A DNA stretch of 64,000 nucleotides, from contig NZ_CP040915.1 in the NCBI RefSeq assembly GCF_006352065.1, positions 744,001-808,000 on the forward strand, written 5' to 3'. How positions within the stretch are numbered: position 1 is the first letter of the stretch; the number at the start of each line of letters is the position of its first letter. The notes under the pieces are model-generated. The model did not search any database, was not told where the DNA came from, and was given only the letters and a program-made list of their open reading frames with translations. Positions 2,600 through 54,369 of the stretch are shown in pieces. Position numbers and translations under genes: made by a program. The stretch is from Georgenia yuyongxinii. Its GTDB lineage: Bacteria > Actinomycetota > Actinomycetes > Actinomycetales > Actinomycetaceae.

Positions 2600-2833
2600 T
2601 CAGCGGGGCGGAATGACGTCGTGATCTTGGAGCTCCGGTCTGGCGCGGACGAAGCGGAGTGGGTGGCGGTAGGAGGTGCCGGACCAGGCGACGTCGGCGG
2701 TGACCTCGACGACGAGGGGTTCGATGGGGTGACGTCGATGGGTTGTTATGTCCCGGGCCAAGCGGTCGACAGCGCCGCGGGGGATGCGGGTGGGCCAGGG
2801 CTGCTCACCGACGGGCGGGTTCGTCCCTTTCAT
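2600..2833 (-). pseudogene. C-terminal fragment of an ATP-dependent DNA ligase
   Basis: A 77-residue frame resembling only the end of the OB-fold domain of small ATP-dependent DNA ligases (LigC/LigD type): WPTRIP, then LVVEVTADVAW, then YRHPLRFVRARPEL. The adenylation domain with its KxDG lysine is absent from the window, so this cannot be a working ligase. Its ATG at 2833 overlaps the stop of the upstream 54-codon frame (ATGA). I read it as the remaining end of a ligase gene cut by the rearrangement that placed the repeated module just upstream. It could instead be a free-standing small domain. Confidence 0.5.
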
Positions 2834-2994
2834 CGCAGCGGTTCGTCGAGCCTGGACAGGCGCAGCAGGTAGCACTGGGGGTAGGTCGGGTCGCACACGA
2901 CGACCGCGGTGAACGCGACGTCGAACTGGTCGGTGACCTCACGGCCTTCCCATATCCCGGCCCGGTGAAGTCGGACTTCCACCAGCTTGTTCAT
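2830..2994 (-). CDS. Hypothetical 54-residue protein with grafted start
   Basis: The first eight codons and everything upstream are identical to the start of the SARP regulator gene at 15075, because the 1.1-kb repeat begins inside both frames. After residue 8 the two proteins are unrelated. The rest (EGREVTDQFDVAFTAVVV, then CYLLRLSRLDEP) looks protein-like but I do not recognise it. The likely history is recombination that joined the SARP promoter and start to a foreign reading frame. Whether the chimera is made is unknown. Confidence 0.35.
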   Translation of the reverse strand: MNKLVEVRLHRAGIWEGREVTDQFDVAFTAVVVCDPTYPQCYLLRLSRLDEPLR

Positions 2995-4092
2995 GCGCGC
3001 ACGGGGGTCGGCCTGCACGCATCAGTTTCCCACGCCCACGCCGCGCGGGTCCAGGTACGAGGCGCGCCAGGACGCTGCTGATGCTTTGCCCCGATGCGCC
3101 GATTCATCGTTCGCCCCCGACGCTGCCCGATCTGCGGCGTGTCCGCGGGCAGTCCGTGCCCGGTCCGAGTCCGGCGACGTGCACCGACGCGCGCGGTGCC
3201 CCCGTGCCAGTGGTGTGGCAGCACGGGCCCCGAGCGTGGCAGCGGTGTGGCAGCGACGGACGAGAGTGTTGATCTGTCAGTCAGTACACACACCAAAGGA
3301 GAAGCACATGGCTGCGATTGAGAACGTGGTGGTCGTTCGGTTCACTGAGCCGAGCAAGGCCTACCAGGCGCTAAGCGCGCTCAAGGACTGCGACGCCGAG
3401 GGTCGGATCGCGCTGCGATCCGCGGCGGTCGTGGAGCGCACCCCTGAGGGATTCCTGCGCACTCCCGAAGCCGCCGACAACATCGGTCTCGTCGGCACTG
3501 CGAGCGGCTCGCTGCTCGGGATGCTCATCGGCGTTCTGGGCGGACCGGTCGGAGTCCTCGTGGGCTGGGGCGCCGGTGCCGTGATGGGCGGAGCGTTCGA
3601 CATCGGTCGTGCCGTGAAGTCGGACGAGGCGCTCACCGAACTGGGCAGGGCGATTCCGCCGGGATCCACGGCGGTGATCGCGACCGCGGCCGAACCGGCG
3701 GTCGAGGTGATCGACGGGGAGATGAGGAAGCTGGAGGGCGAGGTCACGCGCCGTCCCGTCGGCGACGTCATGGACGAACTCGAGGCAGCGGAGGATGCCG
3801 CCGAGGCGGCTGCCCGCGAAGCGCGGCGCGAGCTGCGCGAGAAGCGGAAGACGGAGCTGAGCGCGAGCGTCGACGCGCGCGTCGGAACGCTCAAGGAGAA
3901 GCTCCACATCTCCTGACGGCGATCCGCCGCGCAACGGCGATGTGTTGCGGATGAAGTGATCATCCGGTCAGGACCCGTCGGCCCGAAGGCCGGCGGGTCT
4001 CGACGTGCTCGATGATCAGCCGTACCGACGGCGGACGAGTTCGTGCCACGGTTGTGCCACGGATTCGGCCCCTGCCACGGTTCCGCCACGGG
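2969..4092. repeat. 1.12-kb direct repeat, copy 1
   Basis: About 1124 bp, nearly identical and without gaps to 15050..16173 (constant offset of 12081). It carries the first eight codons and promoter of a leftward gene, a roughly 310-bp divergent intergenic region, a complete rightward DUF1269 gene and its downstream flank. Weaker similarity with small indels continues to the tRNA/tmRNA-like ends at 4284 and 16354. A short frame at 3094..3321 with two Cys pairs (CPIC, CQWC) lies in both copies but its protein changes between them, so I do not call it. Near 4045-4092 the motif GCCACGG occurs four times. Confidence 0.93.
3308..3916 (+). CDS. DUF1269 membrane-associated protein, copy 1
   Basis: A 202-residue protein of the DUF1269 family, whose function is unknown. 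The N-terminal part (MAAIENVVVVRF) forms a ferredoxin-like strand-helix. Residues about 65-100 are a glycine-rich hydrophobic segment (GSLLGMLIGVLGGPVGVLVG), followed by GGAFDIGRAVKSDEALTELG and PPGSTAVIA, typical of the family. The last 50 residues are a charged Glu/Ala/Arg coiled coil. The start is fixed by AAAGGAGAAGCAC just before the ATG. It is almost identical to the gene at 15389. The conserved LGRAIPPGSTAV suggests a role in envelope stress, as proposed for relatives, but nothing here shows it. Confidence 0.85.
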   Translation: MAAIENVVVVRFTEPSKAYQALSALKDCDAEGRIALRSAAVVERTPEGFLRTPEAADNIGLVGTASGSLLGMLIGVLGGPVGVLVGWGAGAVMGGAFDIGRAVKSDEALTELGRAIPPGSTAVIATAAEPAVEVIDGEMRKLEGEVTRRPVGDVMDELEAAEDAAEAAAREARRELREKRKTELSASVDARVGTLKEKLHIS

Positions 4093-4248
4093 CCGATCCA
4101 GCGTTTTTGCGCGGGATTGCGCGTCATCGCGAAGGTCTGCGAAACTCATCACCAGAGCCTCGAGATCCGTGGAATCCAGCGGAGTTCTCGGGGCTCGGTG
4201 AGATCTATCAGCCGTCTTGGCTGGGTGGGGCGGAAGATTCGCCGACCG

Positions 4249-4284
4249 GGAGAAGGTCGGGGGTTCGAATCCCCCTAGCTCCAC
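4249..4284 (+). other. tRNA/tmRNA 3'-end-like sequence, candidate attachment site 1
   Basis: A perfect T-arm: five G (4259-4263), loop TTCGAAT, five C (4271-4275), followed by TAGCTCCA as an acceptor strand ending. AGCTCCA(CCA) is the usual 3' end of tmRNA. The anticodon or tmRNA body is not present upstream, so only the 3' portion exists, as left behind by elements that integrate into tRNA/tmRNA genes. Related sequences occur at 16319 and 53966, each followed by a hairpin. Confidence 0.6.
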
Positions 4285-4290
4285 TCCTTG

Positions 4291-4330
4291 AAGGCCGTTG
4301 GTTCGGGTGAAAGCCCAGATCAGCGGCCTT
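4291..4330 (+). terminator. Hairpin terminator behind the tRNA/tmRNA-like end
   Basis: AAGGCCGTTG and CAGCGGCCTT pair over ten bases with one G-U wobble, around a 20-base loop. It starts seven bases after the acceptor-like end, where a stable-RNA gene would stop. Confidence 0.55.
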
Positions 4331-4332
4331 CG

Positions 4333-4431
4333 GCATTCCCGGGAGTCCTCGATAGGCAGGGCCTGATCATCGACGAGCGGCGCTACTACGACGTCGCGGA
4401 CCAGCTCGAGCAGCTCGGGCTCAGCGAGTAG
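4333..4431 (+). pseudogene. C-terminal fragment of a SnoaL-like/ester cyclase protein
   Basis: A 33-codon frame without a start encodes GLIIDERRYYDVADQLEQLG and a stop at 4429-4431, which matches the usual ending of SnoaL-like polyketide/ester cyclases (a strand, the RRYYD motif, then a leucine-rich helix). The rest of the gene is missing upstream, where the hairpin and tRNA/tmRNA-like end begin. It looks like a gene cut by insertion of the element ending at 4284. The sequence from 4432 to 4834 shows nothing further that I can support. Confidence 0.45.
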
Positions 4432-4834
4432 CCCGTGCCGGCGCTTCGAGTGCAGTTGGCCGAACTCCGACGATGCTCACATCCACCAGATCGGCGACCT
4501 CCAGTCACCCTGGATGGATCAGGACCCCAGTCGTCGATGACCGGAGCCACTTCGTCATCATCGAGTTTGCACACTTCCCTGGCAGGCTCAGCCCACTTCG
4601 CCCGTCTGGTTACCGTCCTGCCCCTCGAGGGCTGCCGTGGGTGTGGGGGCGTGGCGGTAAAGCCACGGGCGGCAGACGCTGCTTGGGCCCGCCCCTGTCA
4701 CGTCATCGCCATGGGCGATGTCATCCGCGTCAGTGGCGCGCACGAGGGGTTGTCCATGGACCCGATGAATGCTCCGATGGGCAGGCTGATGCCGCCGGCG
4801 GCTCAGAGTCGGCGTCAAGCGGCTGGAGGAGCAC

Positions 4835-5287
4835 ATGGACGTGGATCGCAGCGCGCCGGTCCAGAGGCGTGACGCCCTAGAAATCGACGCGTCGCCGGAC
4901 GTCGTATGGTCAGTATTGACCGATCTTGAGTCATGGCCGGACTGGATGCCCGGGGTGAGATCGGTCGAAGTAGAAGGTCCATTCGCGGTGGGGATGCAGT
5001 TCCGGTGGAAGTCGGGTGGGACTCGCCTCGTCTCTACGGTGATGGACGCCAGCCCCGGGCACTCCGCGGGCTGGCGCGGCAAGACGTTGGGGATTGAGGC
5101 GTCGCACGTCTGGCGTCTGCAGAGCCAAGACGGGCGCCGGACGCATGTAGTTACCGAGGAATCGTGGTCCGGAGTGCTGCCGCGCCTGTTCCGGCGCTAC
5201 GCGGAGAGGATCGTGAGCAAGGCCTTGGCCGAGGGTCTCGCCGCGCTAGGAGCCGAGGCCGCGAGGCGTAAAAGGCCTCCGCATTGA
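4835..5287 (+). CDS. SRPBCC-family (polyketide cyclase/dehydrase-like) protein
   Basis: A 150-residue protein with the START/SRPBCC pattern: an N-terminal strand followed by IDASPDVVWSVLTDLESWPDWMPGV, then strands ending in MQFRWKS, and a C-terminal helix from about residue 112 (LPRLFRRYAERIVSKALAEGLAALG). The fold binds hydrophobic ligands in a deep cavity and occurs in small enzymes and lipid-binding stress proteins. GGAGGA lies five bases before the ATG. It is a single gene; the ligand is unknown. The 20 lysine- and arginine-containing C-terminal residues are probably unstructured. Confidence 0.82.
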   Translation: MDVDRSAPVQRRDALEIDASPDVVWSVLTDLESWPDWMPGVRSVEVEGPFAVGMQFRWKSGGTRLVSTVMDASPGHSAGWRGKTLGIEASHVWRLQSQDGRRTHVVTEESWSGVLPRLFRRYAERIVSKALAEGLAALGAEAARRKRPPH

Positions 5288-5297
5288 GTTCCTTCTG

Positions 5298-5345
5298 CAG
5301 CTCACGGGGCAGGTATGACAGCAGCTCACGGGGCAGGTATGACAG
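5298..5345. repeat. Perfect 24-bp tandem duplication
   Basis: Two identical 24-bp units (5298-5321 and 5322-5345), each containing CTCACGGGGCAGGTATGACA, lie ten bases after the SRPBCC stop. They resemble the repeated end sequences of IS21-type elements, but no transposase is attached here. Confidence 0.75.
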
Positions 5346-5390
5346 CCCGACGCAGGGACCCGCTGTCCCCCTGGCTTCCAGGTGTGTCGT

Positions 5391-5436
5391 CGACGGTCGA
5401 AAAGTAGGCCAGGAACGACGGTCGAAGACTAGGCCA
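5391..5436. repeat. Pair of 21-bp imperfect repeats, possible IS end
   Basis: The sequence CGACGGTCGAA followed by TAGGCCA occurs at 5391-5411 and 5416-5436 with three differences. Together with the tandem duplication just upstream it looks like the decayed terminus of an insertion sequence, possibly IS21 family. The assignment to a family is a guess. Confidence 0.4.
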
Positions 5437-5472
5437 CCTGACGGCAGGCGGGAGGTGACCACGAAGGGACGG

Positions 5473-6804
5473 TCAGCCGGCGACGATGGCGCCCAGCCGG
5501 GCGACCGCCGCGGCCTCGGCATCGTGGATCGCCGCGACGTGCGCGCTCATGGTCGCGAGGACTGCGGTGAGGCGCTCGTCGTCCAGTGGCGGGGCGTCGT
5601 CGTGCGCCGCGCGGAGCTGCCACAGTTCTTCGGCGGCCGCTGCCCGGTCGTCGGCTGTCGCGTCGCCCTCGGCGACCGCTCCCGTGACCGTCGCCGTCAG
5701 CTCCCGCAGCCGGGCGATCGCGGGGACGTCGTCCGGCAGGGCGCTCTCGGCGAGGGTATGCCAGCGGTCCGCGATCTCCCGCCACAACGGCGCCTCGGCG
5801 GCGAGCGCCGGCTCGTCGAGCACGACGGCGGCCTGCTCGAGCCCGTCGGCGAACAAGTCGCGCAGGTGACCGCCGTCCATCCCGGCGGGCTCGACGGCTT
5901 CCCACACATCGGCCAGCGCCCGCAGCAGGCCGCGCCCGTCGGCGAACACCGTCGGCCACCCCTTCTCCGCGCGGGAATCGACGAGCAGTCGAGACCATTT
6001 GCGCCAGGCGGGCAGCGCGAAGGACGTCGACGTACCGCCGAGGTGGTCGACGGTGGCCTGCAGCCCAGCGCGCACGGCGGTGCGCAGCTGGTCGGCCGAC
6101 ACCACCGTGTCGGCGGAGCGGACGACGAGCATCGTGTTTTTGTAGCTGCCTACCCGGGCCCGTGCCCGGTCGACGTCGGCCGCCGGCACGGTCAGCGGTG
6201 CGAGCGTCCGGTCGTCGACGTGCACGCGGCCACCGGATCGGTCCTCTGAGAGGGCGTAGGCGACGACCGGGTGGCCGCCTGCGCCGTCGAGCAACGCGGG
6301 CACGTGCCAGTAGCCCATGTGGTAGCGGTCCGGCCACACGATCGCCGGGTCCCCGCCTGCCAGAGCCGACCTCAGTGCTCTCGCTGCGCCCGCCGCGCCA
6401 CCGGTGCGCGACCAGGTCACGTCGAGGCCCAATCGGTCGACCGTGGTGGTCAGGCGCCGGTCGAAGTACTGCCACGAGTGCGCGAACCCGAGGGTGACGA
6501 TGCGGCTGTCGTCGTGGGCGAACTCCCACAGGATGTAGCCGGCCCCGAGACCACCACCGACCACGAAAAGCAGCGGCTCGGTCAACGGCCCGTGCGGTCC
6601 GGTGACGCCGCGGTGCGCGAGCACGTTCGTCAGCGCGGCGGTATCCGGGTCGGCGCCGCCACGCAGCGCCCACCCGGCGTCCACGATCGGGTCACCCGCC
6701 CCGCCGGCGGGGCGGAGTACGTGAGCCCGGGCGACGGCGTACCGCTCGCCGGTGCGAGCCATCCGCGCGCGCACGCGCGTCTTGAGTTGCTTGGCACTGG
6801 TCAT
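5473..6804 (-). CDS. BtrH N-terminal domain (DUF4872-type) protein
   Basis: A 443-residue protein with features of the BtrH_N/DUF4872 family: an early GGGLGAGYILWEF, then a substrate-binding-like region with DRYHMGYWHVP and HPVVAYAL, followed by the second domain with YKNTMLVV. BtrH transfers an acyl side chain from an acyl carrier protein in butirosin synthesis and has a cysteine-protease-like fold. No carrier protein or aminoglycoside gene is nearby, so the substrate here is unknown. The C-terminal 170 residues are helical and Ala/Asp/Glu-rich. The gene is monocistronic and runs leftward. Confidence 0.72.
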   Translation of the reverse strand: MTSAKQLKTRVRARMARTGERYAVARAHVLRPAGGAGDPIVDAGWALRGGADPDTAALTNVLAHRGVTGPHGPLTEPLLFVVGGGLGAGYILWEFAHDDSRIVTLGFAHSWQYFDRRLTTTVDRLGLDVTWSRTGGAAGAARALRSALAGGDPAIVWPDRYHMGYWHVPALLDGAGGHPVVAYALSEDRSGGRVHVDDRTLAPLTVPAADVDRARARVGSYKNTMLVVRSADTVVSADQLRTAVRAGLQATVDHLGGTSTSFALPAWRKWSRLLVDSRAEKGWPTVFADGRGLLRALADVWEAVEPAGMDGGHLRDLFADGLEQAAVVLDEPALAAEAPLWREIADRWHTLAESALPDDVPAIARLRELTATVTGAVAEGDATADDRAAAAEELWQLRAAHDDAPPLDDERLTAVLATMSAHVAAIHDAEAAAVARLGAIVAG

Positions 6805-7266
6805 GGTCGGATTTCCCGACTGCGCACGCGCCGGCCGGGCCCACGCACCGTCCGCCGCCGCAGCCGTAGTGTCCGGTCGTCCGGGACGTCAGGCCGTGCA
6901 ACGCCTCGAGGCTCTCGAAGTCCCCTTTGCCCCGCGTCGCCGGCCCGCGTGGAGGACCGGTCTGGGGTTGGGCGTGAGGCACGCCGGGCTCAGTTTACGA
7001 GGTCCGAGTCTCGTCCGACAACAGCGACATGGGCATGCTCGGCGGGCCATTGCGTGTGGTGACGAGCGTGCGGACCGATCCCATGCGCGGGTCGAGCCGT
7101 TCGCGGGCCTTCGTTAACTTCCTGTGGCGCCCCGGCCAGGCGTCAGGGGGCGAGCCCACCCTGGAGTGCCGGCACAGGACATGCGCGGCTTGTACGAACT
7201 GCCGCCGCCACACATCCACGTCTCCCGGCCGTGCAGGTGCGGAGACCTTGGCGACGCGTTGTGCGG
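6805..7266. other. 462-bp intergenic region without a confident gene
   Basis: Between the BtrH-like and lipid-kinase genes. Open frames on both strands here are short or Arg/Pro-rich and look like GC-driven shadows. A plus-strand stretch near 7150-7220 encodes several Cys residues but has no recognisable fold. I see no convincing hairpin or promoter. Confidence 0.6.
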
Positions 7267-8205
7267 TCACGGCTTCAGCAGCCCGGACGGCGAGACCCCC
7301 GGATGACGCGAGGAGATCCTGACGCGCAGTACCGCAGGACGGATCAGGAGCTTCAGCGGCGGTTGCAGCGTCACCGCCTCGCCGTCGATCCCCAGGTGGA
7401 CCGGCTCCGGAGCGTCGATGACCACGGAGCTGGCAGTCCACGCCCGACCGGCCTGATGCCGGGGCCCATCGGGCAGGTCCAGGATCACGATGCCAAGCTG
7501 CCCGCCGGCCAGCGTGGGGCGGGTCCCAGTCACGAGCGGGCGGTTCAATGCGTAGGGGTTGTTGGACACGAGCACGACGGCCGGACGCGCGTGCTCGCGA
7601 CCCCGGTCATCGACGACCTGTACTGCGGGGGCCGCTCCGCTCGGTCCGAGCACCGCCCGAACCGTCTCCGCGAGGGTCCGCACCTTCGCATCGCGGTACT
7701 CGGAGCGCTGTATCGCGTCGCCGTAGATCCCCAGCGAGACATTGTTGAGGAACAAGCGCTCGTCGACCTGGCCCACGTCGATCCGGCGCTCGACCCCTTC
7801 GGTGAACGCCTCCAGCGCTCCCACGAGGTCGCGCCGATCTACACCGAGATCGAGGGCGAAGTGGTTGCGGGTCCCGGCCGGGATACACACGAAGGCCAGC
7901 CCGTGGGAGACCGCCGCTGTCGCCACGACGGCGAGCGAGCCGTCGCCGCCGGCCACGCCTAAGCCGTCGGCGCCCGCGCGCACCGCGTCGGCGACGAGCT
8001 CATCGAGGCTAGTTTCCGGGCCGAAGGTGAAGATCTCGATCCCAAGCGCTCGTGCGCGCCCGGCGAGGTCGGCCCGCGCCGCCTTTCCCCCGCCCGAGGT
8101 CGGGTTGATGAACAGCACGGGCCGTCGCAACGGGGCGGCCGGAGTCCATCCGTGTCGCAGGGGGCTGGGCCGGGGCAGCTCCGGCGCGCTCATCGGGTCG
8201 CTCAC
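7267..8205 (-). CDS. Diacylglycerol/lipid kinase-family protein
   Basis: About 312 residues, with the DAGK catalytic pattern: RRPVLFINPTSGGGKAARAD, then GLGVAGGDGSLAVVATAA (the GGDG nucleotide-binding loop) and IPAGTRNHFALDLG, followed by the C-terminal beta-sandwich with LFLNNVSLGIYGD. Such enzymes phosphorylate diacylglycerol or related lipids with ATP at the membrane. The GTG at 8205 overlaps the stop of the corA-like gene (GTGA), so the two are probably co-translated; the ATG at 8193 is an alternative. A frame open to 8370 upstream is ignored because it overlaps corA. It differs from the lipid kinase at 61415. Confidence 0.85.
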   Translation of the reverse strand: MSDPMSAPELPRPSPLRHGWTPAAPLRRPVLFINPTSGGGKAARADLAGRARALGIEIFTFGPETSLDELVADAVRAGADGLGVAGGDGSLAVVATAAVSHGLAFVCIPAGTRNHFALDLGVDRRDLVGALEAFTEGVERRIDVGQVDERLFLNNVSLGIYGDAIQRSEYRDAKVRTLAETVRAVLGPSGAAPAVQVVDDRGREHARPAVVLVSNNPYALNRPLVTGTRPTLAGGQLGIVILDLPDGPRHQAGRAWTASSVVIDAPEPVHLGIDGEAVTLQPPLKLLIRPAVLRVRISSRHPGVSPSGLLKP

Positions 8206-9170
8206 AACCAACCGACGCGCCGGAAGTTCCAGTGGAGCGCCCAGACAGCGGCGACCATGACCACCAGCGCGAAGGCGTAGCCAAATGGCCACGTAAGTTC
8301 GGGGATGTGATGGAAGTTCATGCCGTAGATCCCGGTGATGATCGTGGGCGCGGCCGCGATCGCGGCCCATGCCGACACCTTTTGCATGATCTCGTTCTGA
8401 CGGACGGTGACGCGCGACAGGTTCGCACTGAGCAGGCCGTCGAGGCGGCCCGACAGCAGCTCCACCTCCTCGGATAGTCGGCGAGCGTGGTCGCTGGCAT
8501 CACTCAGGAGGGCGCGCACGCCGTCTGGGGACATCACCGGCTCGCCGCGATGGAGGGTGTCGAACACGGCGAGCACGGGATGCACCGCCCGACCGAGCTG
8601 GTCGACGCGGCGGTGGTGGAGGTAGATGGATTCGCTCTGATCGCGATCTCCCTGGAAGACCGCCTGCTCGATCCGCTGAGCCCGATCGAGGAGAAGGTCG
8701 GTCACGCGCTCGGCATCGTCGACCACCGTGTCGAGCACGGCCCACACGGCGGCCATCGGGCCGAGCGCCGTGACCGCCGGATACCCGTCGATGCGCCGGC
8801 GGATGCTGCCGGAGACGTCGCCGGCCGAGCGGCTGACCACGATGGCGTACCGCGCTCCCACGAAGACGTCGAGCTCGCCGATGTCGAGCTGTCCCGTCGC
8901 CTCCTCGTAGCGAACAGTCTTGACGACGATGAAGACGCAGTCACCGTACTGCTCCAGCTTGGGGCGCTGGTGGCCCTCGAGTGCGTCCTTGACGGCGAGC
9001 GCTGGCAGGTCGAAGCATCCGCTGAGCTCGTCGAGTTCCCCGCCGGCGGGCTGGCTCACCGCTACCCACACGAACCCCGGCCCTTGGCGGGACAGGCGAG
9101 CGGCGTCGGCGATGCTTGTCGCCTCCGCGTCGCGAGCGCCGGCGTGGTACCGCGCGGAGTCAACTAGCAA
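8202..9170 (-). CDS. corA: CorA-family magnesium/cobalt channel
   Basis: The C-terminus holds the family signature YGMNF followed by the second membrane helix; the first helix is AWAAIAAAPTIITGI. The long N-terminal cytoplasmic part has the alternating strands and the stalk helix of CorA. It forms a pentameric divalent-cation channel in the inner membrane. The frame is open to 9491, but the added residues are Arg/Ser-rich and unlike the family; I place the start at the TTG at 9170, giving 322 residues, the usual length. No strong ribosome site decides this. It is directly coupled to the lipid-kinase gene downstream. Confidence 0.85.
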   Translation of the reverse strand: MLVDSARYHAGARDAEATSIADAARLSRQGPGFVWVAVSQPAGGELDELSGCFDLPALAVKDALEGHQRPKLEQYGDCVFIVVKTVRYEEATGQLDIGELDVFVGARYAIVVSRSAGDVSGSIRRRIDGYPAVTALGPMAAVWAVLDTVVDDAERVTDLLLDRAQRIEQAVFQGDRDQSESIYLHHRRVDQLGRAVHPVLAVFDTLHRGEPVMSPDGVRALLSDASDHARRLSEEVELLSGRLDGLLSANLSRVTVRQNEIMQKVSAWAAIAAAPTIITGIYGMNFHHIPELTWPFGYAFALVVMVAAVWALHWNFRRVGWL

Positions 9171-9545
9171 GGCCGGTCCAGGCTGACCGGCGGCACTCGC
9201 GCGCTCAGGCTGCCGGTCGGTGGCAAGGGCTCGACGGGTTTGGTCACCTGCTCGCCTCCCAGGATGCCGCCGAAGGAGCCTGCTCCCGAGCCTTGCTGAC
9301 GGAGTCAATTGAACACAGGGTAGTGCGCGCGACGACGCAAACAACAGCACGCGCTGCGTGCGGCTGTAGGCACCATCCGGTCTGCCTCTTGTCCGTGCGC
9401 ACACCGAGCGGGATCGTCTAGATGGTGGATCACGCTCATGCCAGGAGGAGACGACGATGACCCTGACCAGCACGACGGCCCTGACCAGCACGAGCTGCTT
9501 CGGGGAGCCGGTGGACGTCGGCAGCGCAGGCTTGGACGCGGTCCG

Positions 9546-10214
9546 ATGACGAGTCCTGCCGGCGCTGACGCATCGGTGCCACGCACGTCAGCCGCGCGTC
9601 CCGCCGGGCCGCCGTCGGAGCGCCTCGCCGCGCGCCTGGAGGTGCGCGACGCGACGCCGCCGGCCGTGCTCGACGACCTCACACGGCTCGACCTGGCGGC
9701 GTACCGAGCGATCGCCGAGACCCCGACGCCCACGCTCGACGAACCGCTCCGCCGGCTGTCCATCGTCGCGAGCCACTCCAAGCTCTGGATGGGGATCGCC
9801 GCGCTCATCGCGGCGTTCGGCGGGCCTTCGGGTCGTCGCACGGCCGTCACGGCGCTGACGGCGGTGGGGGTGAACTCACTCGTCGTCAACCTCCCGCTGA
9901 AGCTGCTCGGCCGACGCGCCCGGCCGGACCGTGCGGCAGCACGCGTGTCGCCGACCCGCCATGTCCCGATGCCGACGTCGCCCTCGTTTCCTTCCGGTCA
10001 CGCGGCGTCCGCGTTCGCCTTCGTCGCTGCGGTGGCGCGGACGATGCCCGGGGTGGCCCGCTACATGAGGGCATTGGCGTACCTCGTCGGCTACTCCCGT
10101 GTCCACACCGGCGTCCACTATCCCGGCGATGTCATCGTCGGGGCCTTCATCGGCACGGCGATCGGCGAGTCCGTCGCCTACGCCGCGAGCCCTCGCCCGC
10201 GTAGTTGGTTGTAG
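9546..10214 (+). CDS. PAP2-family membrane phosphatase
   Basis: About 222 residues with all three PAP2 phosphatase motifs: KLLGRRARPDR (motif 1), PSFPSGHAAS (motif 2, catalytic His of PSGH) and SRVHTGVHYPGDV (motif 3, with the nucleophilic His). Hydrophobic helices flank each. Such enzymes dephosphorylate phosphatidate, undecaprenyl pyrophosphate or related lipids on the outer side of the membrane. The ATG at 9546 is used; the frame opens at 9438 with an acidic, low-complexity leader that I exclude. It diverges from corA; the 375 bases between them hold no further gene. Confidence 0.88.
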   Translation: MTSPAGADASVPRTSAARPAGPPSERLAARLEVRDATPPAVLDDLTRLDLAAYRAIAETPTPTLDEPLRRLSIVASHSKLWMGIAALIAAFGGPSGRRTAVTALTAVGVNSLVVNLPLKLLGRRARPDRAAARVSPTRHVPMPTSPSFPSGHAASAFAFVAAVARTMPGVARYMRALAYLVGYSRVHTGVHYPGDVIVGAFIGTAIGESVAYAASPRPRSWL

Positions 10215-10250
10215 CGCCGACGGCGGTCCGGGCGACCACGAGCCCGGCAG

Positions 10251-10895
10251 TCAGTGGATCAGCCTCTCGAGCAGCAGCAGCACGACCCCGAGAGCTCCCT
10301 CGACAGCCGCGAACAGGCCTGCGCGCAGCCATGTCGCGCCGGCGCGGCGGCCGGCGACGAATCCCCAGCAGACGATCTGGGCGATCGCTGCGGCCATCGC
10401 GAGCGCCGCGCCGGTCTCGCGCGACCACACACCGACCCACGCGAGCGCGAGCGCGAGCGTGGGGACGACCGCCGCTTCGACCAGTGGCCATTCGCGGCGC
10501 GCGATGACGAGCGCGTCGCGTCGCCGGAACGTCTCACCTGCCGTAATGCGCGCACCGACGACCTCCGACCACCAGTGCGCGAGCCAGAAGACGAGCATCG
10601 ATCCGAAGGCGGAGAGCGTCATCTCCCGCGCGTCGCGTCCGGCCTCGAAGGCGAGCCCAACCACGGACGCGACGAGGAAGGATCCGTAAACGGCGGCGCC
10701 GAACCGCATGCTCGCACGCGAGCCGAACGGGACGTTCTCGCGGCCGCTGTGCGTCGCTCCCTCGTCGGGGAGGACGCCTCGATCAGAGGCATCCTGCCCG
10801 ACCCGCTGATCGCCGCGGCGACGAGCACCGCCGTGAGCGCGCTGCTCCCGCGGTCGGTCCAGCGTCTGCATCGAGGCTTCCTGCTCCTCACCCAT
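10251..10895 (-). CDS. Hypothetical membrane protein
   Basis: A 214-residue protein with a charged N-terminal 60 residues, then about five hydrophobic segments (among them AAVYGSFLVASVVGLAFEAG and LFAAVEGALGVVLLLLERLI). The ATG at 10895 lies inside the end of the HdeD-like gene, overlapping by eight bases, so the two are translationally coupled. No catalytic motif or named family is recognised. It is the last gene of a leftward group that also includes the HdeD-like and coiled-coil genes, possibly an acid or envelope stress unit. Confidence 0.65.
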   Translation of the reverse strand: MGEEQEASMQTLDRPREQRAHGGARRRGDQRVGQDASDRGVLPDEGATHSGRENVPFGSRASMRFGAAVYGSFLVASVVGLAFEAGRDAREMTLSAFGSMLVFWLAHWWSEVVGARITAGETFRRRDALVIARREWPLVEAAVVPTLALALAWVGVWSRETGAALAMAAAIAQIVCWGFVAGRRAGATWLRAGLFAAVEGALGVVLLLLERLIH

Positions 10896-11520
10896 GGGTG
10901 GCCGCCTCCGCCCCGCTCGGGGACCGGAAAAGCTGGTCCAGCTCACCGGCCACGTGCCGAAGCAGGATCGCCAGCGCCACGTCGAACGTGCCGCGGACCA
11001 GTGCGAACGCGGCCACGAGCGCCACGAGCGCCATCGCACCGCCGCTGGGCTCGACGAACATCACGACGCCGAACGCGGCGAAAGCGATCCCGCCCACCGC
11101 TACCAGCACGGTCCGCGGGCCGCTGAGCGGCAGCACGAACGCCCCGACGAGCTCGATGACGCCAACTGCGATGGCCCAGAGGGCGATCGCGTAGAGGAGC
11201 GCCGTTGCCGACAGGTCGGGCCACAGCAGCACCGCTGCTCCGGCCAGGAGCCCGACCACTGCGTGCACGGCCAGCCAGAAGCGGTACCGCTTCGCCGCAC
11301 CAGGCAGCCCGAACGCGGCCGCGGCAGACACGGACCCGCTCGCGATCGCGAGCACGCCCACCGCCGACACGATGGCCGTGAGGCCGACATCGGGCCAGAC
11401 GAGCAGGACGATCCCGAACGCGATCGCGACCACGCCCCGCAGGGCGATCAGCTTCCAGACGCGGGCGAAGATCAGCTCGCCGGCCCGGAGCGCCGGGCCA
11501 GGGTCGTAGGTTGATTCCAT
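10888..11520 (-). CDS. HdeD-family (DUF308) membrane protein
   Basis: A 210-residue protein made almost wholly of six membrane helices in three two-helix repeats; each repeat has the DUF308 pattern of a helix ending in WPD (LLVWPDVGLTA, LLWPDLSATAL) and a small-residue-rich second helix. HdeD of E. coli is a membrane protein linked to acid resistance at high cell density; the molecular role is unknown. The ATG at 11520 has AGGAGG eight bases upstream and is preferred over the ATG at 11526. It sits 16 bases after the coiled-coil gene, so they form one transcription unit. Confidence 0.85.
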   Translation of the reverse strand: MESTYDPGPALRAGELIFARVWKLIALRGVVAIAFGIVLLVWPDVGLTAIVSAVGVLAIASGSVSAAAAFGLPGAAKRYRFWLAVHAVVGLLAGAAVLLWPDLSATALLYAIALWAIAVGVIELVGAFVLPLSGPRTVLVAVGGIAFAAFGVVMFVEPSGGAMALVALVAAFALVRGTFDVALAILLRHVAGELDQLFRSPSGAEAATHG

Positions 11521-11536
11521 CTTCATGTCCTCCTCC

Positions 11537-12061
11537 TCAGTCACGCCACGCCGTGGCGGCCTTGGCATTGAGCTCGTCGAGCTCCGCCAGGGCGTGCGTC
11601 TTCGCGTCGCGCCAGCCGTCGTCCGTTGCCGTGCCGGCGGCGGCGACGCGCGCGCCGATCGCCAGGCGGCGCTGCCGGAGGTCGGCGATCGCCGCCTCGG
11701 CCCGATCCCGCGCAACGCCGGTCTTCGTCGCCGCCTTGGTCTGCATACGGTCTAGGTACGCGTCCCATCGGTGCAGCTCCGCCTCGACTGCGCCTGTGAA
11801 CTGCTCCTCGGTCGCCGCGAGCTCTGCCGCCATCCGGTGCTCGGCAATCTCGAGCGAGATGTCGAGCTGCTCGAGCCTCCCGGCGACGGCGGCCGCCTCC
11901 GTGCGACCCGAGGCCCGCGCGGCCTCCTCGTCGCCGTGCAGGGCGTCGACGTATCGCTGCATCCTGGACCGAGCGTTCGCCGTGCCTTCCTGCGCTCTCA
12001 CCTCGAGACGGGCGATGCGGCGGCGGACGTCACTCAAGCGTTCCTCTGTTGCTGTGGCCAT
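11537..12061 (-). CDS. Hypothetical coiled-coil protein
   Basis: A 174-residue, almost entirely helical protein rich in Ala, Glu and Arg with heptad-like spacing; it has no membrane segment or signal peptide. Typical stretches are ERLSDVRRRIARLEVRAQ and AEAAIADLRQRRLAIG. The ATG at 12061 follows a GGAAGGA ribosome site; a frame open to 12415 overlaps the SARP gene and is ignored. It leads the operon with the HdeD-like and membrane genes, and may be a cytoplasmic partner of one of them. Function unknown. Confidence 0.6.
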   Translation of the reverse strand: MATATEERLSDVRRRIARLEVRAQEGTANARSRMQRYVDALHGDEEAARASGRTEAAAVAGRLEQLDISLEIAEHRMAAELAATEEQFTGAVEAELHRWDAYLDRMQTKAATKTGVARDRAEAAIADLRQRRLAIGARVAAAGTATDDGWRDAKTHALAELDELNAKAATAWRD

Positions 12062-12174
12062 GGGGGTTCCTTCCTCGTGTTTGCGAACACAAGGGAGCGT
12101 GGTCCTCGCCGCTGCCAGACGGCTGCCGCAGACGCAGTCGCGGCTGCCACGCGGGCCCCCGCAGGATCGCCGGC

Positions 12175-15075
12175 TCAGGCAGGCGCGGTCGCGGCCGTTA
12201 TCTCGTCGCGGCCGTCGCCCAGACCGGCCAGGCCGACCGCGGCCGCGGCGGCCGGGTCCTGGGACAGCACCACGAAAAGGCTCTCGCGGGGCCCGTGCGC
12301 CCGCCGGGCCTTGGACCAGGCGAGCACGGTGCGGTACAGCTTCGCGGCCGTCTTGGCGTCGCCGGCCGCCGCGAGGATGCGACCGAGCTCCACACGCGCA
12401 TGGGCGGCGGCCCACGACGCACGCGCCGCCTCGGCCGTCGCCAGCGCGCGTCGCTCGAGCTCCTCGGCCTGGGTCACGTCGCCGCCCGCGAGGGCGCTCG
12501 ACGCGAGCCCGGACAGCGCGAACGCGGCGTGGTCGGCGAAACCTATTCGACCGGCGAGGTCGAGTGTGCGTCGATACGCGACCGTCGCGGCGCTGCTGTC
12601 ATGCCGCCTCTCGGCGACCCACGCCTCGAGCAGCATCGCGGGAACGAGGAACGCGTCGAAACCCGTGGCCTGGGCGTGACGGCGCGCCTCCGCCGCCATG
12701 GCGGCGACCGTGGCCACGTCGCCCGCGGCTGCGGCGACCTGCGCACAGAAGAGGCTGGCCGCTGCGCTCTCCCAGTGGTTCTCGCCGGCGTCGAGCCTCG
12801 CATACCCCCGCCCCGCGAGCGCGGCCCCCCGCTCGACGTCGCCTGCCTCGGCGACGGCGAGGCCGAGCGCTGCTTCCACCAGGCCGAGCTCCGGCACCGC
12901 CGCCTCGGTGGCTTCGCCCGCGAGGGCCCGTTCGCCGATCTCGATCGCCGTGTCGAGGTCGAGCTCCTCGGTCGCGAGGTAGCAGCGGAAGGCGTGGAGC
13001 TCGAGCCGCTCGGCCACCGTCAGATCCCCTGACGTCGCAGCCAGCGCGCGCTCGAGGAAGCGTCGGCCCTCGGCCACGCGTTCGGCAAGGACGAAGTACC
13101 AGGCGAGCGCGGCCAAGCGCGCGGCGATGCCGCTCTCGCGGGCATCGCGCGCGTAGGTGAGCGCAGCCCACACGTTGTCGTTCTCGAGCTCGAGCCGGCG
13201 GACCCAGGCCCGCCAGTCGGCTCCTCGCAGCTCCGCGCGCGCCGCCTCGGCGAGTGCCGCGATGGACTCGGCGTGCGCCCGCCGGGCAGCGGCGAGACGA
13301 CCGCTCTCGGCTAGACGTTCGAGCGCGTACTCCCGCACCGTCTCCAGCATGTCGTAGCGCGCACCTTCGGCGGGGAACGACACGGCCAGGATCGACTTGT
13401 CGACGAGCACGCCCAGCAGGTAGGTCACGGTGGGCTCATCGAGTCCGTCGCTCGCCGCGGCGGCGACCAGCGACGGCACCGACGCGCCGCCCCGATGTAC
13501 CGCCACCTTGTGTAACAGCGACTTTTCGTCCTCGTGCAGCACGTCGTAGCACCACTCCACGAGCGCCTGAAGGCTCGCGCGGTTCGCGTCCGATGCCGGC
13601 ACGTCGCCGAGGAGCTCGAGGCGGTGCTCGACGACGGAGAGGATCTCCACCAGCCCGAGTGCATGGGCGCGCGCGGCGGCAAGCTCGATTGCGAGCGGTA
13701 GCCCGTCAACGTGGCGGCTGATCTTCGCCACGAGCGGCGCGGCCTCCGCCGTCAGCTCGAACCCAGGACGAGCCGCCCGTGCGCGCTCGACGAAGAGCTG
13801 CACCGCCGGTGAGTCGACGCCGTCGCTCCGGCCCGGATCGGGCACTCTGAACGGCTCGACCATCACCCGCACCTCGCCGGGCACATGCAGCACCTCGCGG
13901 CTCGTCGTCAGCACCCGCACGTCCGGACAGCCGGCCACGACCGCTGAGGCGACCCGCGCCGCCTCCCCGACGACACGGCCACAGCCGTCGAGCCACAGGA
14001 TCGCGTCGGCGTCACGCAAGCGGCCAACGACCCGGGCGAGCGGGTCGGCGCCCCGGACGTCCACGGCGTGCGCGACCAGGCGAACGACGTCGTCCTCCCC
14101 GCCGGCACGGGCGAGATCGACGAACCATGCCCCGTCGGCGAACTCATGCTCCACCGAGCGAGCCGCCTCCAACGCGAGCCTGCTCTTGCCGACACCCGGC
14201 AGTCCGGTCAGCGTCACCAGGCGGTGCTCGCGCACCAGCGCGAGCACCTGGGCGAGCGCCTCCTCGCGATCGACGAACGAGGTCGACGGAGCGGGGAGGG
14301 TGCCTCGGCGCCTCCGTGGAGCCGGAAGGGGCGCGATCGCGGGATCGTGCGAAAGGATGGCGTCCTGGAGGCGCCGCAGCTCGGGTCCCGGCTCTAGCGC
14401 CAACTCCTCTGAGAACACGCGCCGCGCCTCACGGAAGGCCTCGAGCGCGTCGGGCTGGCGGCCGCTGCGGTACAGCGCGAGCATCAGCTGGCCCCACAGG
14501 CGCTCCCGGAACGGGTTCTCCTCGAGCGCCGTTCCGAGGGCGGGCACGACGTCGCGGTGCTCTCCTAGGACGAGCGCCGCCTCGAACTGCTCCTCGAGTG
14601 CGTCGACGCGAAGGGACTCGAGCCGCCGCGCCTCGGCGCCGAACCACGCCGTGTCGGTGAGGCCGTGCAGTGCCGGGCCCCGCCAGAGCTCCAGCCCGCG
14701 CGCGACCGACTCCGCCCCCGCGACGGCATCCCCTGCGCGCAGCGCATCACGCGCCTCGTGCAGCAGGTCCTCAAACCGCAGAGCGTCGACCGCCGCGTGG
14801 GCCAGCGCGTAGCCGTCCGGCGTCGCGGCGATGGCCTCCGAACCGAGCGCAGCCCGGAGACGGGCGACGTGGTGCTGGACGGCGTTGCGCGGCGCGGCAG
14901 GCAGGTCGTCTGCCCACAAGGCGTCGATCAGCGAGTCGACGCCGACGACGCGACCGCACCGGAGCGCGAGCAGCGCGAGAAGCCCGCGGCGCTTGCCGCC
15001 GCCTACGTTCGCCGGCTGCCCGCCGGCGAGGACCTCGAACGGGCCGAGCAGTCGGACTTCCACCAGCTTGTTCAT
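12175..15075 (-). CDS. SARP/AfsR-type transcriptional regulator with BTAD and NB-ARC domains
   Basis: A 966-residue regulator. Residues about 5-95 are an OmpR-like winged helix (LLGPFEVL, GKRRGLLALLALR, AVQHHVARLRAALG); 98-242 are the bacterial transcriptional activation domain; from about 265 an NB-ARC ATPase follows with Walker A GLPGVGKS at 291-298 and a Walker B-like ILWLDGC at 359-365. The C-terminal 400 residues are TPR-like helical repeats. Such proteins activate secondary-metabolite or stress genes. The ATG at 15075 is favoured; the sequence up to and including codon 8 belongs to the repeated module. No antibiotic cluster is present, so the target is unknown; the adjacent duplicated promoter is a candidate. 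Confidence 0.9.
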   Translation of the reverse strand: MNKLVEVRLLGPFEVLAGGQPANVGGGKRRGLLALLALRCGRVVGVDSLIDALWADDLPAAPRNAVQHHVARLRAALGSEAIAATPDGYALAHAAVDALRFEDLLHEARDALRAGDAVAGAESVARGLELWRGPALHGLTDTAWFGAEARRLESLRVDALEEQFEAALVLGEHRDVVPALGTALEENPFRERLWGQLMLALYRSGRQPDALEAFREARRVFSEELALEPGPELRRLQDAILSHDPAIAPLPAPRRRRGTLPAPSTSFVDREEALAQVLALVREHRLVTLTGLPGVGKSRLALEAARSVEHEFADGAWFVDLARAGGEDDVVRLVAHAVDVRGADPLARVVGRLRDADAILWLDGCGRVVGEAARVASAVVAGCPDVRVLTTSREVLHVPGEVRVMVEPFRVPDPGRSDGVDSPAVQLFVERARAARPGFELTAEAAPLVAKISRHVDGLPLAIELAAARAHALGLVEILSVVEHRLELLGDVPASDANRASLQALVEWCYDVLHEDEKSLLHKVAVHRGGASVPSLVAAAASDGLDEPTVTYLLGVLVDKSILAVSFPAEGARYDMLETVREYALERLAESGRLAAARRAHAESIAALAEAARAELRGADWRAWVRRLELENDNVWAALTYARDARESGIAARLAALAWYFVLAERVAEGRRFLERALAATSGDLTVAERLELHAFRCYLATEELDLDTAIEIGERALAGEATEAAVPELGLVEAALGLAVAEAGDVERGAALAGRGYARLDAGENHWESAAASLFCAQVAAAAGDVATVAAMAAEARRHAQATGFDAFLVPAMLLEAWVAERRHDSSAATVAYRRTLDLAGRIGFADHAAFALSGLASSALAGGDVTQAEELERRALATAEAARASWAAAHARVELGRILAAAGDAKTAAKLYRTVLAWSKARRAHGPRESLFVVLSQDPAAAAAVGLAGLGDGRDEITAATAPA

Positions 15076-16173
15076 GCGCGCACGGGGGTCGGCCTGCACG
15101 CATCAGTTTCCCACGCCCACGCCGCGCGGGTCCAGGTACGAGGCGCGCCTGGACGCTAGTGCTGCTTTGCCCCGATGCGCCGATTCATCGTTCGCCCCCG
15201 ACGCTGCCCGATCTGCGGCGTGTCCGCGGGCAGTCCGTGCCCGGGCCGAGCCTGGCGACGTGCACCGACGCGCGCGGTGCCCCCGTGCCAGTGGTGTGGC
15301 AGCACGGGCCCCGAGCGTGGCAGCGGTGTGGCAGCGACGGACGAGAGTGTTGATCTGTCAGTCAGTACACACACCAAAGGAGAAGCACATGGCTGCGATT
15401 GAGAACGTGGTGGTCGTTCGGTTCACTGAGCCGAGCAAGGCCTACCAGGCGCTAAGCGCGCTCAAGGACTGCGACGCCGAGGGTCGGATCGCGCTGCGAT
15501 CCGCGGCGGTCGTGGAGCGCACATCTGAGGGATATCTGCGCACTCCCGAAGCCGCCGACAACATCGGTCTCGTCGGCACTGCGAGCGGCTCGCTGCTCGG
15601 GATGCTCATCGGCGTTCTGGGCGGGCCGGTCGGAGTCCTCGTGGGCTGGGGCGCCGGTGCCGTGATGGGCGGAGCTTTCGACATCGGTCGTGCCGTGAAG
15701 TCGGACGAGGCGCTCACCGAACTGGGCAGGGCGATTCCGCCGGGATCCACTGCGGTGATCGCGACCGCGGCCGAACCGGCGGTCGAGGTGATCGACGGGG
15801 AGATGCGGAAGCTGGAGGGCGAGGTCACGCGCCGTTCCGTCGGCGACGTCATGGACGAGCTCGAGGCAGCGGAGGATGCCGCCGAGGCGGCTGCCCGCGA
15901 AGCGCGGCGAGAGCTGCGCGAGAAGCGGAAGACGGAGCTGAGCGCGAGCGTCGACGCGCGCGTCGGAACGCTCAAGGAGAAACTCCACATCTCCTGACGG
16001 CGATCCGCCGCGCAACGGCGATGTGTTGCGGATGAAGTGATCATCCGGTCAGGACCCGTCGGCCCGAAGGCCGGCGGGTCTCGACGTGCTCGATGATCAC
16101 GCGTACCGACGGCGGACGAGTTCGTGCCACGGTTGTGCCACGGATTCGGCCCCTGCCACGGTTCCGCCACGGG
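15050..16173. repeat. 1.12-kb direct repeat, copy 2
   Basis: The partner of 2969..4092 in the same orientation. Here its left edge is continuous with a complete SARP gene, so this copy probably keeps the original gene order and copy 1 is the rearranged one. The two copies bracket 12 kb; recombination between them would delete or invert nothing essential-looking but would remove the SARP-to-SRPBCC block. Confidence 0.93.
15389..15997 (+). CDS. DUF1269 membrane-associated protein, copy 2
   Basis: A 202-residue paralogue that differs from the gene at 3308 at only a few residues (TSEGYL for TPEGFL, SVGD for PVGD). Most other changes between the copies are silent third-position changes, which suggests both have been under selection since the duplication, or that the duplication is recent. 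It diverges from the SARP gene with a 313-bp intergenic region that may hold promoters for both. Confidence 0.85.
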   Translation: MAAIENVVVVRFTEPSKAYQALSALKDCDAEGRIALRSAAVVERTSEGYLRTPEAADNIGLVGTASGSLLGMLIGVLGGPVGVLVGWGAGAVMGGAFDIGRAVKSDEALTELGRAIPPGSTAVIATAAEPAVEVIDGEMRKLEGEVTRRSVGDVMDELEAAEDAAEAAAREARRELREKRKTELSASVDARVGTLKEKLHIS

Positions 16174-16318
16174 TCAAACCAGTAGAATCACGCGCGATTG
16201 CGACGGTCTGCGAAACTGAATGCCAAGGCTTTAGATCCGCGGAATCGCGCGGGTTTCGGGCTCGGCCAGACAGTCAGATCAGCCGTCTTGGCGGGTAGGG
16301 GAGAGGTCCCGCCGACCG

Positions 16319-16354
16319 TGAGAAGGTCGGGGTTCGATCCCCCTAGCTCCACCA
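16319..16354 (+). other. tRNA/tmRNA 3'-end-like sequence, candidate attachment site 2
   Basis: Contains GAGAAGGTCGGGG, loop TTCGATC, then CCCC and TAGCTCCACCA. It matches site 1 apart from a lost base in the T-arm, and here the full CCA end is present. The preceding 30 bases (hairpin CCGACC/GGTCGG) are also shared with site 1. Confidence 0.58.
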
Positions 16355-46639: not shown

Positions 46640-47310
46640 ACCTCAGCAGCGAGCCGGCATCGGAGTGGTGGATCAGCCCGGCGTTGATGGGGTGGCCGTC
46701 GCGGTCGCGGCGCCAGGTGGCCGTCGTCACGGCCGTGAGGACCAGGTCGGTGTGCTTGGTCGTCATTGCGTGCCAACCCACGATCGCCTGGGAGAAGAGA
46801 TCCACGGCGAAGGTGACGTAGACAAACCCCGCCCAGGTGCGCACGTAGGTGAAGTCGGCCACCCAGGCCAGGTTCGGGGCCGGGGCGGTGAAGTCCCGGT
46901 TGAGCTTGTCCCCGGCCCGCTTCTGTCCTTGCCGGCACCGTGGTGCGGACCTTGCCGGACCGGATGACCCCGTGCTTGCCGTGCTCACGCATCAGCCGCT
47001 CGACGGTGCACCGGGTCACCGCGACGCCCTTGGCGCACAGGGCGTGCCAGGTTTGCGGTACCCGTACAGGCTCTCCGCCGTGGCCTTGCCGGCCACATCG
47101 AGACGCAGCGAGCGGATCTCGTTGAGGACCACCGCGTCGGTCACTGTGCGCTTCGCCGGCTTCGCCGGCTTGCGGGAGCGGTGGGCGTAGTGGGTGCTCG
47201 GGGCGATCTTGCACCCGTGCTCGGTCAGCACGGTGCAGACCGGCTCGACCCCGAACCGGTCCTTGTTCTCGTCGATGAACCGGCAGACCAGCGGCGTGGC
47301 GGGTCGGGCT
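46640..47310 (-). pseudogene. IS3-family orfB relic, 3' end truncated
   Basis: Reading leftward: FIDENKDRFGVEPVCTVLTE, then AESLYGYRK, a frameshift near 47060, HALCAKGVAVTRCTVERLMR then EHGKHG, another shift near 46930, and LAWVADFTYVRTWAGFVYVT with LIHHSDAGS. These are the parts of an IS3-group integrase including the first DDE aspartate (WVADFT) and the second (HHSDAGS). The segment with the catalytic Glu is missing: the frame stops matching at about 46650, exactly where the IS30 relic ends, so IS30 insertion probably split it. Confidence 0.8.
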
Positions 47311-47602
47311 CCCGCGCGAAGAAAGACGCTGCTGCCTTCAAGATCTCATTCGCTCGCCGCAGTTCCTTGACCTCGCGCTCGAGCTCCTTCACGCGCGCGT
47401 ATTCCTCACTGGTCACGCCCGGCCGCTTGCCGGTATCAACCTCACTCTTTCGCACCCACAGGCGCAGGCTCTCGGCGCCGATGTCGAGTTTGGCTGCCAC
47501 CGCTTTGATCGCGGCGTACTGCGAGGCGTAGTCGCTCTGGTGATCCAGCACCATCCGGACCGCGCGGTCTTTCAAATCGTCGGGGCAACGCTTCGTTGAC
47601 AC
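47225..47602 (-). CDS. IS3-family orfA (helix-turn-helix subunit)
   Basis: A frame of about 125 codons from the GTG at 47602: STKRCPDDLKDRAVRMVLDH then the HTH AAIKAVAAKLDIGAESLRLW and a leucine-zipper-like helix VKELEREVKELRRANEILKA ending AASFFARE, which is complete for OrfA. The remaining codons are the normal overlap where a -1 shift would produce OrfAB. Because orfB is broken, no transposition is expected. Confidence 0.8.
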   Translation of the reverse strand: MSTKRCPDDLKDRAVRMVLDHQSDYASQYAAIKAVAAKLDIGAESLRLWVRKSEVDTGKRPGVTSEEYARVKELEREVKELRRANEILKAAASFFAREPDPPRRWSAGSSTRTRTGSGSSRSAPC

Positions 47603-53965: not shown

Positions 53966-54003
53966 GGGAGAAGGTCGGGGTTTGGAATCCCTTCAGCTCC
54001 ACC
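53966..54003 (+). other. tRNA/tmRNA 3'-end-like sequence, candidate attachment site 3
   Basis: GGGAGAAGGTCGGGGTTTGG followed by AATCCC and CAGCTCCACC closely resembles the sites at 4249 and 16319, but the T-arm has mismatches. GACCT/AGGTC can pair just before the T-arm as in the other two. No integrase is next to it. Confidence 0.5.
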
Positions 54004-54050: not shown

Positions 54051-54369
54051 GCTTTCCAGCCAGGACGCCGACATCGTGGATGGTGACCTGCAAATTCCAC
54101 GCTTTGTGCCACGGAATGGTCCGCGCCGCGGGCGCGCGGAAAGGCATGGCCGTCAGGTGTGCCACGCACACCTGACGGGCGGGACCCAGCACATCGAGAC
54201 CCCAGAGCCCTGCCCCACACGCCCTTGTGGATGCTCGAGGAACTGTGCGCCAAGCTGCACTTCTCCCCGCGCAGCCGTCCACGGGTGGGACGGTGAGGGC
54301 GTGGTCGGGCAGTGGAAGGGACGCCGGGTCGTGCTGACCCAGGACGCCCATGCCTTCCGCGGCCCTCGC

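Follow-up and report, generated by a model that had tools for sequence, protein, structure and literature searches.

Two nearly identical 1.1-kb segments, each carrying a DUF1269 gene, lie about 12 kb apart in the chromosome of Georgenia yuyongxinii, and the genome holds these two copies only. They raise the questions of what kind of unit was duplicated, which copy keeps the ancestral order, and how the start of a SARP regulatory gene came to be joined to the tail of another gene. The window analyzed here is a stretch of 64,000 nucleotides (genome positions 744001-808000) within a genome of one contig of 4,171,640 bases; coordinates are those of the window unless given as genome positions. The repeat and the features that define its limits are:

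2969-4092, plus strand: repeat copy 1, the duplicated right-end segment, 98.1% identical to copy 2
15050-16173, plus strand: repeat copy 2, in its ancestral context, adjoining the intact SARP gene
2830-2994, minus strand: chimeric frame that opens with SARP codons 1-9 and continues, in phase, with the final 45 codons of another gene
3308-3916, plus strand: DUF1269 gene copy 1, 202 amino acids, glycine-rich membrane-hairpin type
15389-15997, plus strand: DUF1269 gene copy 2, 202 amino acids, protein 99% identical to that of copy 1
12175-15075, minus strand: intact large SARP gene, 966 amino acids from its ATG, with Trans_reg_C, BTAD, ATPase-like and TPR-like parts (Pfam)
7256-16085: block syntenic with Georgenia sp. 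SYP-B2076 (genome G004), about 89% identical and single copy there

Extent, ancestral order and left joint of the repeat

Base-by-base alignment of 2969-4092 with 15050-16173 gives 1103 identical positions of 1124 and no gap, confirming the near-identity claimed in an earlier sequence-only reading. Comparison of the two copies also bears out that the duplication took with it the DUF1269 gene together with a start codon and the divergent promoter linked to SARP. The flanks are unlike: ungapped identity is 28% over the 100 bases that precede the copies and, to the right of 4092, 50% and then 27%. An assembly artefact, to which near-identical copies 12 kb apart and the adjacent doublets among their differences might point, is very improbable because the 21 differences are scattered and include copy-specific changes on both sides relative to G004, dS between the copies is 0.058, the flanks differ, and the genome is a single contig.

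A search of relatives for a single-copy ancestral order, which the same reading had called for, leads to G004, where SARP and DUF1269 occur once and in the order of copy 2; copy 2 thus represents the ancestral order. A 1.2-kb piece with a DUF308/HdeD-like gene (10738-11972) is missing from the otherwise syntenic block of G004. Judged from synonymous divergence (dS 0.058 between the DUF1269 copies versus 0.29-0.30 from either copy to G004), the duplication is younger than the split from G004, yet not very recent. With dN at 0.007 between the copies, both DUF1269 proteins look conserved, on small counts. The block in G004 adjoins relatives of the cargo of the neighboring element (GH15 trehalase-like and lysyl-PG synthase genes), and the SARP-DUF1269 element and its neighbor may therefore descend from one composite stress-type island.

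The left edge of the repeat falls inside codon 9 of the SARP gene, after eight full codons and two bases counted from the ATG at 15075 on the minus strand (a GTG at 15099 is also a possible start), in agreement with the codon 8-9 boundary first proposed. The frame that follows from the same start in copy 1 had been described as an unrelated frame of 54 codons and its product as a chimeric gene. The frame is present, and the predicted chimera with it; its nature is now clear, as nine SARP codons run into the 45 codons with which a now truncated gene natively ends. That gene is intact in genome G001 (235 amino acids, L080:931-1638), the tail keeps its native reading frame, and no Pfam, NCBIfam, or PHROG family matches it. 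DNA of G001 matches the left flank of copy 1 at 90%, ending at 2967, one base before the repeat, and 2600-2820 has relatives in genome G003 at 88% DNA identity that end at 2820; the flank is a pile of gene ends. A ligase fragment reported beside copy 1 is not borne out by Pfam, no family of which matches the minus-strand frame at 2600-2938. Homology at the left joint amounts to one or two bases at most, and the joint is therefore illegitimate. The 54-codon chimeric frame is probably a by-product, which may be expressed.

The tandem array on tRNA-Ala(CGC)

The DNA beyond the right edge of each copy leads to a remnant of a tRNA gene, and the window contains the following parts of a larger array:

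4250-4284, plus strand: att, a tRNA-Ala(CGC) 3'-end remnant, 158 bp after repeat copy 1
16320-16353, plus strand: att, a tRNA-Ala(CGC) 3' remnant with two single-base losses, 147 bp after repeat copy 2
53968-54003, plus strand: fifth att, the next after 16320-16353
54052-54288: excisionase pseudogene following the fifth att
4285-16353: integrase-less element of about 12 kb with BtrH-like, DAGK, CorA, PAP2, DUF308/HdeD-like, SARP and DUF1269 genes
4029-4092, plus strand: right-end integrase-arm-like block of the element with copy 1, made up of four TGCCACGG-type repeats
16110-16173, plus strand: right-end integrase-arm-like block of the element with copy 2, made up of four TGCCACGG-type repeats

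An intact tRNA-Ala(CGC) gene lies at genome positions 696180-696256 (G000:C1; ARAGORN), 48 kb to the left of the window, and BLAST places 3' remnants of it at genome positions 724729, 748250, 760320, and 797968. An intact tRNA gene thus stands at one end, and its 3' end recurs as a direct repeat at every junction, as in a tandem array. A tmRNA gene was considered as the integration target on the strength of a weak Rfam tmRNA match at the att, and was rejected when ARAGORN resolved the match to the tRNA-Ala(CGC) at 696180. Tyrosine integrases that are 69% identical are encoded just after the first two sites (genome 696690-698066 and 725199-726551), each adjoining an att and preceded by an excisionase-like gene; a search of the third and fourth elements for an integrase gave no match. 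The element at 4285-16353, which has no integrase match and retains an att on both sides (the right one with the two base losses), is a candidate CIME; the check for transfer genes covered its Pfam-scanned proteins.

Relatives have a shorter site or a single element. The distance from the tRNA gene to the conserved chromosomal block is 138 kb here versus 5.5 kb in G001 (blastn), G006 carries one smaller element at the same tRNA site, and relatives of the integrases adjoin tRNA-Ala-matching sites in G002, G006, G007, and G008. On the basis of the tRNA remnants, the integrases, and the 138-kb versus 5.5-kb spacing, the first base of the window falls within a tandem array of tRNA-Ala(CGC) elements, and the whole window belongs to the 138-kb inserted region. 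The elements themselves are presumably mobile.

The last 64 bases of the repeat are the arm-like block, which precedes the att remnant in all 10 of 10 right ends from five genomes. Identity between the copies drops from 98% to 50% at its edge, so the right breakpoint coincides with homology common to element ends. The position, repeat structure, and conservation of the TGCCACGG repeats suggest that they serve as integrase arm sites. Over the whole aligned stretch, the end with copy 1 is 82-84% identical to the end at the second att and to G004_24996, and 76% identical to the end with copy 2. The earlier description of the repeat as a duplicated module thus survives in part: the segment is duplicated, but it is not free-standing, as the copies are the right ends of two neighboring tRNA-Ala(CGC) elements, and each of these integrative elements has a DUF1269 copy as its right-end cargo. 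A small transposable element, as a discrete 1.1-kb unit in two copies might suggest, is highly unlikely: DUF1269 is the sole gene recognized inside the repeat (Pfam), the whole genome has two copies only, the right edge belongs to a conserved stretch of the host element, and the single ancestral copy is embedded in a longer syntenic block. Terminal inverted repeats and a transposase were sought in the repeat and neither was found, for which reason an insertion sequence or transposon was rejected.

Several other features lie in or near the array. A pyruvate carboxylase gene (genome 721039-724494; L006:1040-4495) is the right-end cargo of the first element and ends just before the att at 724729, a malate synthase G gene (51188-53371) lies close to the left of the fifth att, and an Rfam ALIL pseudoknot (RF01497), of a kind met in insertion sequences that use frameshifting, lies at 47199-47330 on the minus strand. 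The region at 561-590k of G004 (G004:C1; L048, L118), a few kilobases to the left of a tRNA cluster, is a mosaic stress-type region with relatives of two neighboring elements of the present array and an integrase remnant.

DUF1269, the SARP regulator and its predicted operator

The PF06897 (DUF1269) profile matches residues 65-151 of the protein with 36.7 bits, above the curated cut-off of 26.9 (Pfam), as in other DUF1269 proteins; unlike these, the protein has a long C-terminal helical tail and an N-terminal beta-alpha-beta region. The fold is predicted, at low confidence (mean pLDDT 65.7, below 50 in the membrane part), to place a glycine-rich hairpin between two beta-alpha parts followed by the long C-terminal helix. 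A search for a related solved structure found none; the weak matches of the model to the PDB (best E 0.04, several of them CutA-like) carry no weight as evidence. DUF1269 relatives were found in only two of nine genus genomes, this one and G004, and none of 10 distant DUF1269 loci compared has an adjacent SARP gene. A PADLOC scan of four proteins gave no match. The neighboring genes, namely CorA, PAP2, and DUF308/HdeD-like genes together with the FtsH, trehalase-like, and lysyl-PG synthase genes that the adjoining element carries, suggest a role for DUF1269 in the envelope or in stress tolerance.

The regulator encoded beside copy 2 is a SARP by virtue of an N-terminal winged-helix domain (PF00486) and a BTAD domain (PF03704), both above cut-off (Pfam). 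The elements through which it may act are:

3216-3253, plus strand: triple-heptamer, SARP-type predicted operator before DUF1269 copy 1
15297-15334, plus strand: triple-heptamer predicted operator 54 bp ahead of the ATG of DUF1269 copy 2
12112-12149, minus strand: triple-heptamer predicted operator 50 bp ahead of the ATG of the gene lying downstream of SARP, conserved in G004
11537-12061, minus strand: predicted coiled-coil protein gene (no Pfam match to its product), second predicted SARP target

The DUF1269 promoter region contains three direct repeats, TGGCAG-N15-TGGCAG-N5-TGGCAG, which are identical between the copies and also conserved in G004. The predicted operator of the coiled-coil gene has the same arrangement and the same orientation relative to its gene, at 50 rather than 54 bases from the ATG. 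A search of nine genus genomes (about 38 Mb) for TGGCAG-N15-YGGCAG-N5-TGGCAG, with one mismatch allowed, returned five places, three here and two in G004, all beside predicted SARP targets within the two SARP clusters; the pattern is absent from the seven genus genomes in which no DUF1269 relative was found. A sigma-70-like promoter was sought in 14950-16200 and not found. We infer from this distribution, in which the pattern occurs across nine genomes only beside the predicted targets of this SARP, that the one intact SARP would control both DUF1269 copies, in trans, as well as the coiled-coil gene. The suggestion that the two paralogues share a SARP-linked promoter accordingly stands in the form of an identical, conserved, predicted SARP-type operator at both.

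The operators of the SARPs PimR, SanG, and PolR consist of GGCA-type direct heptamers (TGGCAAG, CGGCAGG) with 4-bp spacers, forming 11-bp units, and lie in the promoter that serves the divergently oriented neighbor of the SARP gene (PMC3367932, PMC5930380). The present pattern is alike in its GGCA-type direct heptamers and in its place before the gene divergent from SARP. It is unlike them in spacing, the last pair of repeats lying 11 bp apart but the first pair 21 bp, at odds with the classical SARP period of 11, and in its predicted targets, which are membrane and coiled-coil genes and not those of an antibiotic pathway.

Routes to the duplication and its meaning

The repeat is likely to be a duplicated segment from the right terminus of integrative elements arrayed one behind another on tRNA-Ala(CGC), with exchange between the elements and control by the SARP as the accompanying parts of the proposal. 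Homologous element ends would have recombined at the arm-like block, and one illegitimate joint, arising either from a deletion after accretion or from a one-sided copy, would have closed the other side. The outcome would be a SARP promoter and DUF1269 gene at the end of the neighboring element and a SARP start fused to the tail of a truncated gene. The intact SARP would then bind TGGCAG-N15-YGGCAG-N5-TGGCAG and activate both DUF1269 copies and the coiled-coil gene, and the duplication would increase the dosage of a membrane protein of the envelope or stress type.

Tandem integration with deletion and ectopic copying fit about equally, and both need one illegitimate joint. In the former, which has close to an even chance of being right, a second complete SARP-DUF1269 element entered the array in tandem, after which only its right end survived a deletion reaching from 2968 to SARP codon 9. 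A left joint without long homology agrees with this, as do a left flank that was already a pile of gene ends (the 88% match of G003 to 2820 and the 90% match of G001 to 2967) and the description of tandem arrays as unstable and recombining (PMC3218068). However, the copies have very different DNA from 4092 to the att (ungapped identity 50% and then 27%; 76% across the full aligned end), so the two would not be the same element end unless exchange also took place at the arm-like block. Ectopic copying, a reasonable though somewhat less than even prospect, would have repaired a break starting in the arm-like block by copying 1.1 kb leftward, with illegitimate joining in SARP codon 9; it is consistent with the right breakpoint, which falls where a 64-bp block common to element ends stops, and with the differing att-side sequence beyond that block, but its end product is the same as that of the deletion.

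Tandem accretion at tRNA genes, decay to integrase-less CIMEs, and within-array recombination have been described (PMC5704250, PMC3218068). ICESt1-type islands and AICE tandem arrays resemble the present array in stacking at one tRNA 3' end, repeated att, and tyrosine integrases, as well as in a decayed element with att but without an integrase and in recombination between array members (PMC5704250; PMC3218068). The present array is unlike them in that the piece held in common is a 1.1-kb cargo-plus-arm end segment, and in that the array sits on tRNA-Ala(CGC) in a Georgenia relative. A literature search pairing Georgenia with integrase returned only titles on other subjects, and the mobile elements of Georgenia seem little described. 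Accretion and decay of tRNA islands being already known, the present case is a well-resolved instance. It is a doubtful proposition that the arm-like block serves these tRNA-Ala elements as a general point of exchange, through which stacked islands swap their end cargo, and that the SARP, with a private operator of its own, constitutes a mobile, dosage-tunable stress regulon.

The locus offers a readable case of stacked tRNA islands exchanging end cargo: one can see the ancestral order, the two breakpoints, and the site-specific setting. It also provides a precise predicted operator for a SARP whose targets seem to be membrane-associated genes and not antibiotic genes.
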